64,000 bases of DNA, taken from Sphingomonas piscis (lineage in GTDB: Bacteria > Pseudomonadota > Alphaproteobacteria > Sphingomonadales > Sphingomonadaceae). Within the stretch, counting starts at the first letter, position 1, and every line of letters begins with the position of its first letter. Below the pieces are notes generated by a model. The model saw nothing but the letters and a program-made list of their open reading frames with translations. It made no database searches and was not told the origin of the DNA. The position numbers were made by a program, and so were the translations under genes. Of the stretch, positions 21,676-26,113 are shown piece after piece. The DNA lies in assembly GCF_011300455.1 (NCBI RefSeq), contig NZ_CP049869.1:1302001-1366000 (forward strand), given 5' to 3'.

Positions 21676-23935
<2,260 letters not shown>

Positions 23936-24984: not shown

Positions 24985-25101
24985 TCAGTCCTTCGTCAAG
25001 CCGCCACCGCCCTTGGTCGACGGGTTGGCCGCGATCGTCTTAACCTTCTCCTTCTTCGGCTTGCGCGCTTCTTTGTTCGATTTCGCCTGACCCTTGGCCA
25101 T
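24985..25101 (-). CDS. Small basic hypothetical protein, 38 residues
   Basis: MAKGQAKSNKEARKPKKEKV followed by KTIAANPSTKGGGGLTKD. About a quarter of residues are Lys, so it is likely disordered and could bind nucleic acid, but no function is known. AAGGAGA lies 5 bases before the ATG, a strong ribosome-binding site. It sits 22 bases upstream of yaiI on the same strand and just downstream of the terminator of the Cys-rich peptide gene. Such lysine-rich mini-proteins recur in alphaproteobacteria (recalled). The longer open frame upstream of this start is not supported. Confidence 0.7.
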   Translation of the reverse strand: MAKGQAKSNKEARKPKKEKVKTIAANPSTKGGGGLTKD

Positions 25102-25163: not shown

Positions 25164-25198
25164 GGAAAAGGGCCGCGCCATCCAGCGGCGCGGCCCTT
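25164..25198 (-). terminator. Intrinsic terminator of the cysteine-rich peptide gene
   Basis: On the minus strand AAGGGCCGCGCC-gctggat-GGCGCGGCCCTT forms a perfect 12-bp stem (25168-25198) followed by TTTTCCC. It starts 5 bases after the stop codon of the gene at 25203-25304. Confidence 0.8.
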
Positions 25199-25202
25199 CT
25201 CG

Positions 25203-25304
25203 TCAGCAGCTGCAATTCTTGCAGGTGCACGGGCTGCAGCGGCAACCGCCGCGCGTGTCGAGCTTGGCGGCCTTGACCTGCTGTTCGGTGTGCTGGCTGG
25301 TCAT
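25203..25304 (-). CDS. Metallothionein-like cysteine-rich mini-protein, 33 residues
   Basis: The peptide MTSQHTEQQVKAAKLDTRGG is followed by CRCSPCTCKNCSC, six cysteines in a CxCxxCxCxxCxC array, the spacing used by metallothioneins to bind Cu(I), Zn(II), Cd(II) or Hg(II). AGGAGA 6 bases before the ATG is a strong ribosome-binding site. A MerR-type promoter with a palindromic spacer lies at 25350-25380, and a 12-bp terminator hairpin starts 5 bases past the stop, so it is a self-contained transcription unit. It is shorter than known bacterial metallothioneins (about 50-60 residues) and has no His-rich zinc-finger part. Metal binding and buffering is inferred from the cysteine pattern and promoter; no family match could be tested. 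Confidence 0.75.
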   Translation of the reverse strand: MTSQHTEQQVKAAKLDTRGGCRCSPCTCKNCSC

Positions 25305-25349
25305 GTCATTTCTCCTTCTGATGACCCTGCCCGTAAGTGGGCCTCACCC

Positions 25350-25380
25350 CTTTAGCTTCCGTACCATGGTACGGGGTCAA
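25350..25380 (-). promoter_or_regulatory. MerR-type promoter/operator for the cysteine-rich peptide
   Basis: Read on minus: -35 TTGACC (25380-25375), then the perfect palindrome CCGTACCATGGTACGG (25374-25359), then AAGC and -10 TAAAGG (25354-25349), a 20-base spacer. MerR-family activators bind such palindromes inside overlong 19-20 bp spacers. The arms CCGTAC/GTACGG around a 4-base centre are the same as in the classical mer operator (TTGACTCCGTACATGAGTACGGAAG, from memory). The predicted transcript starts about 37 bases before the ATG at 25304. Confidence 0.7.
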
Positions 25381-25429
25381 GCAGAAAAATGCTGTCCTAC
25401 AACGCGGGGTTTGTGCCTTACCCTGTTCG

Positions 25430-25768
25430 ATGAGCTACCAGCGAACCAAGCCCCTCCTCGCCACCCCGCCCCGCAGCGATGGCTGGACCGCCAAGCGTCA
25501 TCTGCGCTTCCTCACTGTTCTCCTCCACACCGGCAATGTCCGGCTTGCGGCCGAGTGCGTCGGGATGACCCGCGAAAGCGCCTATCGCCTCCGCAGCCGC
25601 GATCCCCACGGCTTGTTCGCCCACATCTGGAAAAAGGCGATCGCGCTCCCCGCCTGGCCGCCCGAAAGCGGCGAAGTTGACAAAGGTCACACTCGCATCA
25701 CCCTCGACAGGCTCGCTACGGAGGGGAGTGGCGACCCGCGGATCTTCGTCACCACGTCAACTTCGTGA
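25430..25768 (+). CDS. Helix-turn-helix protein, sphingomonad-type, function unknown
   Basis: A 112-residue protein. Residues about 17-60 (KRHLRFLTVLLHTGNVRLAAECVGMTRESAYRLRSRDPHGLFA) form a helix-turn-helix: a scaffold helix, then NVRLAAECVGMTRESAYRLR as the recognition pair. Many sphingomonad proteins with this SAYRLR motif exist without assigned function. The C-terminal part after residue 70 is low in recognisable structure and may be shortened relative to relatives. ATG 25430 was chosen as the conserved part follows it; the frame also opens earlier, across the MerR-type promoter. It is divergent from the Cys-rich peptide gene, 50 bases from that gene's -35 box. It is not a MerR-family protein. 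Confidence 0.65.
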   Translation: MSYQRTKPLLATPPRSDGWTAKRHLRFLTVLLHTGNVRLAAECVGMTRESAYRLRSRDPHGLFAHIWKKAIALPAWPPESGEVDKGHTRITLDRLATEGSGDPRIFVTTSTS

Positions 25769-25900: not shown

Positions 25901-26113
25901 ATGAGCGACGAGAAGGTCAAAGGTCCCGCCTCCTACTTCCCCTCCATCGAGAAGAAGTACGGCCGCCCCATCGCCGAGTGGAAAGCCCTGCTCCGCGCCC
26001 GCCCGCCGGCGAAGCATATAGAGCATGTGGCCTGGCTGAAGAGCGAACATGCGATGGGCCACGGCCACGCCAACGCCCTCGTCGCCCACACGCTGGCCGA
26101 GGACAAGGGCTGA
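25901..26113 (+). CDS. DUF4287-domain protein (copy 2)
   Basis: 70 residues, closely similar to the protein at 23729-23935 (KVKGPASYFPSIEKKYGRP, KHIEHVAWLKSEHAMGHGHANALVAHTLAE). Function unknown. It heads a run of three small genes: the DUF1801 gene starts 3 bases after its stop and the YciI-like gene overlaps that one. Confidence 0.85.
   Translation: MSDEKVKGPASYFPSIEKKYGRPIAEWKALLRARPPAKHIEHVAWLKSEHAMGHGHANALVAHTLAEDKG

Follow-up and report, generated by a model that had tools for sequence, protein, structure and literature searches.

The genome of Sphingomonas piscis (2.72 Mb, one contig) contains a 33-codon gene for a metallothionein-like peptide that is preceded by a promoter of the MerR type and followed by a terminator-like hairpin, and both the cysteine array of the peptide and the operator in front of it are conserved in relatives from several genera of the Sphingomonadaceae. 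We consider it probable that this unit provides a minimal metallothionein-like buffer, inducible by Cu(I)/Ag(I), and that its regulator now acts in trans. The gene lies in a stretch of 64,000 nucleotides, the whole of which is referred to here as the window. A preliminary description made from the DNA alone had named a −35 element, palindrome, spacer, −10 element, Shine-Dalgarno sequence, ORF, and hairpin, and each of these was found again on the minus strand, correct to the base:

25380-25375, minus strand: −35 element TTGACC, read from the sequence
25374-25359, minus strand: operator, a perfect 16-base palindrome CCGTACCATGGTACGG, read from the sequence; one of two GTACCATGGTAC sites in the genome
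25354-25349, minus strand: −10 element TAAAGG, read from the sequence
25317-25312, minus strand: Shine-Dalgarno sequence AAGGAG, 7 bases 5' of the ATG, read from the sequence
ATG 25304 to end of TGA 25203, minus strand: 33-codon ORF for the metallothionein-like peptide MTSQHTEQQVKAAKLDTRGGCRCSPCTCKNCSC, from sequence and conservation
25168..25198, minus strand: terminator-like hairpin with a 12-bp stem and a 7-base loop, then TT, from sequence and folding
25424..25768, plus strand: helix-turn-helix-like gene of unsure start that abuts the operator, from a weak HTH_1 match (E 0.19)

MerR-type promoters have a spacer of 19–20 bases that includes a dyad, and here the 20 bases between TTGACC and TAAAGG hold the entire palindrome. 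The peptide units of relatives mostly have TTGATT, TTGACT, or TTGATC as the −35 element, and their −10 element is variable (TATAGG, CATAAG, CATAGG, and others), the TAAAGG of the window being unusual. The hairpin stem begins 5 bases past the stop codon, and the 60 bases 3' of the stop fold with −32.4 kcal/mol (z −3.7 against 100 mononucleotide shuffles); the corresponding 60 bases reach z <= −2.5 against shuffled sequences in 17 of 22 peptide units, the exceptions being L096, L100, L120, L125, and L184.

The peptide has the very small size and the CxC and CxxC arrays of the metallothionein class, with six cysteines arranged as CxCxPCxCKxCxC, all in the last 13 residues. A peptide similarity search of 100 genomes, S. 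piscis included, gave a match at E <= 0.5 in 32 of them. Thirty loci that were collected by peptide similarity alone were then passed through a scripted scan, which found a Cys-array peptide in 14; all 14 have GTACCATGGTAC, or GTACTATGGTAC in L020, 59–74 bases upstream of the likely ATG, and the 16 loci without such a peptide (E 0.016–0.42) were dropped. In a second, named collection with species such as Sphingomonas hankyongi, S. alba, S. cremea, S. segetis, S. horti, and S. daechungensis, the operator, or a version of it changed at one base, is present at 13 of 13 loci, at least 8 of these 13 looking like genomes of the first set or of the genus-wide 12-mer scan described later. An alignment of the 14 peptides (A1) has eight invariant columns (C21, C23, P25, C26, C28, K29, C31, and C33), and the six aligned cysteines are invariant in all 22 peptides found at operator sites. 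The metallothionein-like mini-gene of the preliminary description is supported by this conservation of the array and by the recovery of the operator in both of the overlapping sets.

Codon comparisons point in the same direction. Pairwise mismatch at codon positions 1, 2, and 3 is 0.147, 0.197, and 0.313, so that the third position varies most, and for the last 15 codons the medians are 0.167 (dN) and 0.572 (dS), with dN below dS in 192 of the 210 pairs for which dS is defined (21 of the 231 pairs were left out for want of a defined dS). Between the window and four relatives, the last 29 codons give dN of 0.06–0.14 and dS of 0.26–0.55. Members are about 25–40 residues long and their arrays hold 6 to 10 cysteines, a variability that is expected of a chelator. 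Judged by sequence conservation, the window locus is a real gene, a mini-gene conserved in sphingomonads from soil, and its relatives in several genera of the family keep the cysteine array under purifying selection.

A profile search of 396 genomes of the order matched 16 at E <= 0.01, ten of Sphingomonas and six others. In three of these six (G252, G321, and G375) a Cys-array peptide follows the operator or a variant of it, and in three (G215, G258, and G400) it does not; L141, L143, and L144 were dropped from this set because they have no Cys-array peptide. The preliminary description had also held the ORF to be too short for standard gene callers, which is largely so: about 5.8 billion predicted proteins contained 6 relatives, a count that is not exhaustive because the search relies on shared 5-residue words, and their sole source name is 'hypothetical protein.' No curated model of a prokaryotic metallothionein was matched, since the window peptide had no Pfam family at E <= 1 and no NCBIfam model, the 14 member peptides gave one weak Pfam match (HTH_10, E 0.18), and the 14-row profile had no match in PDB at E <= 10. 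Likewise, 72,556 plasmid records gave no peptide match at E <= 1, and literature searches, which are a weak guide as most subscription papers lie outside them, returned no description of the peptide or the regulator.

To place the operator, we surveyed it across the genus and the family. The 2.72-Mb genome has two copies of the exact 12-mer GTACCATGGTAC, which is present in 29 of the 71 genomes from the genus (its backwards control in 1 of 71), and its absence from the other 42 shows that the system is dispensable. The pattern TTGANYCYGTACNNNNGTACRG occurs in 82 of 397 family genomes and 29 of 96 genera, with 96 places listed, and its backwards control in none of the 397. Contexts were obtained for 95 of the 96 places (the G321 site is L140, already in the set) and for the genus 12-mer sites. 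The resulting 119 pattern matches were reduced to 117 sites by dropping L215, L218, and L220, whose context is identical to that of L213, and by adding L115 by hand; L115 misses the strict pattern, and for the same reason the genus sites L109, L124, and the second site of L099 are uncounted. By output, these 117 sites comprise 22 peptide genes, 86 glutaredoxin-MauE genes, the latter class being set by a loose motif with both domains present in the one member scanned (L105), and 9 others. In Sphingomonadaceae the operator thus seems mainly to drive a fusion of glutaredoxin and MauE, about 250 residues long, that lies beside a divergent MerR with two cysteines. Downstream of the fusion at L105 (L105:5031-5780) come two small proteins, the first containing Cys/His and the second rich in Cys/His, with a Met/His-rich protein between them. 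At L184, the one case found with both outputs adjacent, about 0.8 kb separates a peptide unit from a glutaredoxin-MauE unit, and each of the two has an operator of its own. The nine other outputs are the following:

L157 and L160: P-ATPases with YHS and heavy-metal-binding domains; best NCBIfam model copper-translocating, with scores below its cut-off, both genes being cut by the locus end
L175: CopC, above the NCBIfam cut-off (103.5 vs 95)
L110 (own genome) and L159: Met/His-rich proteins with no Pfam or NCBIfam match
L195 and L196: small His-containing membrane proteins without merR, perhaps for metal transport; L196 matches DUF6010 and L195 looks alike
L167 and L178: mercury mer loci with operator centre ATTG/ATGA and a merT-like first gene (MerT by Pfam at L178)

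The operator centre is CATG at 19 of the 22 peptide sites and at L110, L159, and L160, TGCG at L157, and TACG at L175. The same operator therefore stands before known copper genes, namely CopC and the two P-ATPases, these recognised copper genes accounting for only a few of the 117 sites and having a differing centre at L175 and L157. Since the switch in front of this conserved peptide governs copper-resistance genes at other loci, the peptide is probably a miniature protein that binds copper and is produced when needed. Among neighbour families that recur at 4 or more of 19 peptide loci, judged by eye, we recognised merR and a ThiC-like gene, and no copper gene was recognised among them; the copper reading accordingly draws on the shared operator and on the own-genome regulator, not on what lies beside the peptide.

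A point that the preliminary description had not foreseen is that most peptide units have a merR gene directly divergent from them. A MerR-like gene in divergent orientation and no more than 90 bases away is present at 16 of the 22 peptide sites, 79 of the 86 glutaredoxin sites, and 5 of the 9 others, and merR lies within 1.2 kb at 19 of the 22 peptide sites, that of L184 being the merR of the neighbouring glutaredoxin unit. For many peptide units, merR probably starts at the ATG that lies in the middle of the palindrome, so that the operator would cover the start of its own regulator. In an alignment of 101 MerR rows, the two mercury MerRs have Cys in the column of the mercury ligand Cys82, and each of the 99 non-mercury rows has Arg there; these 99 rows stand for 98 distinct genes, because the L184 merR is present both in full and as a truncated copy. 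Cys117 is conserved throughout the 99 non-mercury rows and Cys126 in every one but that truncated copy (98 rows), and the two are spaced as C-x7-C in 96 of the 96 non-mercury rows with a readable motif (5 others are cut or unreadable), which is also the spacing in CueR. The subfamily accordingly has the two cysteines of CueR (TIGR02044) with no third ligand cysteine, but Arg in place of Ser77. When three MerRs were scanned against NCBIfam no subfamily cut-off was reached; for the own-genome MerR the mercury MerR model (TIGR02051) scores best, at 109.6 bits vs a cut-off of 150.85, with the CueR model behind at 91.6 bits vs 147.4.

CueR is described as binding Cu(I) through Cys112 and Cys120 with Ser at position 77, and as gaining a response to Hg, Zn, Cd, and Pb when Ser77 is changed to Cys (PMC7911910); a regulator that lacks the cysteine at that position is therefore unlikely to be a mercury sensor. 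Taken together, the absence of Cys82, the C-x7-C motif shared with CueR, and the copper genes that have the operator make copper or silver a likelier ligand than mercury. Two other readings of the regulator have to be weighed against this evidence. The first, which we regard as unlikely, is that the peptide-linked MerR clade senses Ag(I), Au(I), or electrophile stress, with the peptide serving as a general thiol buffer alongside glutaredoxin-MauE. In its favor, the MerR tree sets 14 peptide-linked MerRs of the genus apart as a clade (99/94), which makes sensing of another metal possible, they often have a basic loop between the two cysteines, such as CAKKRGGPC, and glutaredoxin is the commonest output by the loose motif. 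The tree has few columns and an unsettled bootstrap, and in it the own-genome MerR groups with mostly glutaredoxin-linked ones at an open fork with weak support (84/82). Against this reading, the sole subfamily regulator of the own genome is divergent from a Met/His-rich gene, and CopC and P-ATPases are targets elsewhere.

The second reading makes the peptide a mercury-inducible thiol trap, or one for another divalent metal, under a mercury-type MerR. The preliminary description had called the operator mer-type, and this stands for the arms: CCGTAC/GTACGG are those of the true mer loci L167 and L178 in the same family, and the MerRs score best against the mercury model. It does not extend to the metal, because the regulators found with this palindrome have Arg for Cys82 in 98 of 98 distinct genes, the centres of the two mer operators differ from the CATG of most peptide sites, a merT-like first gene is present at just two of the 117 sites, and some copper genes carry the same operator. 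The change at Cys82 and the copper targets led us to set mercury aside as the first choice, and we consider it rather improbable.

The preliminary description, having found no MerR gene in the window, had placed the regulator elsewhere, and the window indeed contains no gene of the subfamily. Three MerR-domain proteins are encoded in the genome, and the only one of this subfamily lies at about 823 kb (G000:C1:823427-823828). Its likely start is inside CTGTACCATGGTACAG at 823,820-823,835, which contains the only other GTACCATGGTAC in the genome, and it is divergent from the Met/His-rich gene of L110. The link between operator and regulator holds across the genus, where a close MerR (E <= 1e-40) is present in 29 of 29 operator-bearing genomes and in 36 of 71 overall, with 7 genomes having a close MerR and no exact 12-mer and 35 having neither (Fisher p 1.5e-13, shared ancestry uncorrected); the cut was placed afterwards, in the score gap between 5e-42 and 7e-31. 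In 6 of the 7 genomes without the exact 12-mer a variant operator lies beside the MerR (L248 in G057 gave no reading), and at 6 of 8 sites these variants precede glutaredoxin-MauE. At the merR-less sites tested, a close MerR is present elsewhere in the genome in every case, comprising the peptide sites L115 and L199, the glutaredoxin sites L098, L103, L112, and L203, and L157, L175, L195, and L196 of the other sites, which is compatible with trans control.

Synteny suggests how the window unit came to lack its neighbour. Two homologues of the helix-turn-helix-like gene at 25424-25768 lie directly past merR, with 50% over 68 residues in L106/L082 and 46% over 95 in L119/L083; L122 has a further homologue (44% over 63) some 0.7 kb past merR. 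L106/L082 belongs to the soil species S. hankyongi, in which merR and the peptide gene form a divergent pair. The two direct cases suggest that a merR of the window was deleted between the operator and this gene. With no adjacent merR and an unusual −10 element the unit could be decaying, and the window copy would then be an unexpressed relic of the loss. We consider this quite improbable, as the palindrome is perfect, the ORF, Shine-Dalgarno sequence, and hairpin are intact, and dN is 0.06 vs a dS of 0.45 against L123, the nearest of the four units compared.

Under the preferred reading of a copper- or silver-inducible buffer, the locus would be a one-gene unit on which a dimer of the MerR subfamily sits at the palindrome within the over-long spacer. 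The two C-terminal cysteines of this MerR would bind a thiophilic monovalent ion, most likely Cu(I) and perhaps Ag(I) or Au(I), and the metal-loaded protein would remodel the promoter so that RNA polymerase could make a short mRNA, ended by the hairpin, from which the 33-residue peptide would be translated. The six cysteines of the peptide may wrap a small cytosolic Cu(I)-thiolate cluster, for which clusters of the Cu4S6 type are a precedent, and the peptide would buffer the ion until export. In S. piscis itself, the adjacent merR having probably been deleted, the remaining member at 823 kb beside the Met/His-rich gene would act in trans. That the peptide instead competes with MerR for metal or binds it, shutting off the response and not protecting the cell, would suit its small size, its expression from an operator common to the divergent merR, and the feedback that removal of metal from MerR would give, but is highly improbable given that conservation is concentrated in the cysteine array and that the array reaches 10 cysteines in some relatives, which fits a role in capacity.

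Several described systems resemble the unit in part. MymT of Mycobacterium tuberculosis has a regulator that presumably lies outside the MerR family, unlike the unit here. By description, MymT is similar to the window peptide in being a small, non-annotated, Cys-rich ORF with a role in copper resistance, and it is given as 4.9 kDa with a predicted capacity of up to six Cu(I) (PMC7558416). CadR-zrd of Pseudomonas aeruginosa PAO1 likewise has a MerR-family regulator over an uncharacterised small metal-binding ORF, but Zrd has two zinc ribbons and a Zn/Cd response (PMC12301328), whereas the unit here combines a short CxC array with a MerR subfamily that has two cysteines. CueR and other monovalent-metal MerRs share with the subfamily the C-terminal C-x7-C without a third cysteine, and their systems share the dyad in a long spacer and some copper targets (PMC7558416, PMC10028694, PMC7911910). 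The subfamily differs from CueR in having Arg and not Ser at position 77/82, arms of the mercury mer type, and a score below the CueR model cut-off. The mercury mer operons of L167 and L178 have the same operator arms and divergent layout, but their MerR has C82 (GTHCEEA) and their first gene is merT-like. SmtA and PmtA are longer than the peptides described here, at about 25–40 residues, and the window peptide has no Pfam family that would join it to them. Like the window peptide, both belong to the Cys-rich metal chelator type (PMC12301328).

More tentatively, a separate MerR subfamily of Sphingomonadaceae may run a copper regulon with interchangeable outputs, which would be glutaredoxin-MauE, copper pumps, or a tiny Cu(I)-thionein, and would combine DNA recognition of the mercury type with a two-cysteine, Arg-bearing sensor; the peptide and the glutaredoxin could then form a cytosolic thiol-exchange route for Cu(I). 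To our knowledge, few bacterial metallothioneins have been described, and this peptide gene escapes annotation because of its small size. If this wider regulon reading is true, the peptide would rank among the smallest dedicated Cu(I)-thioneins that bacteria are known to have. The operator, of which a genome scan found the second GTACCATGGTAC site at the own-genome MerR, offers a handle for finding such peptides by promoter instead of by protein. In this family, moreover, copper genes are tied to a MerR sensor whose ligand set is unusual, so that the metal selectivity of MerR proteins can be tested directly. The adjacent and orphan units together provide a natural example of how a regulator is lost and how control in trans may take its place.

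A further divergent pair of merR and peptide was seen at L252 (G053), with a one-base operator variant and a longer relative of the peptide with an extended array, ACQCSPCTCAPCNCEACTC. Directly past the hairpin, the window has a short Lys-rich ORF, MAKGQAKSNKEARKPKKEKVKTIAANPSTKGGGGLTKD (24985-25101, minus strand), which had no match in a Pfam search and whose ATG is preceded by AAAGGAG. DUF4287 proteins flank the peptide gene on both sides, at 23717-23935 and 25901-26113 of the window (plus strand).
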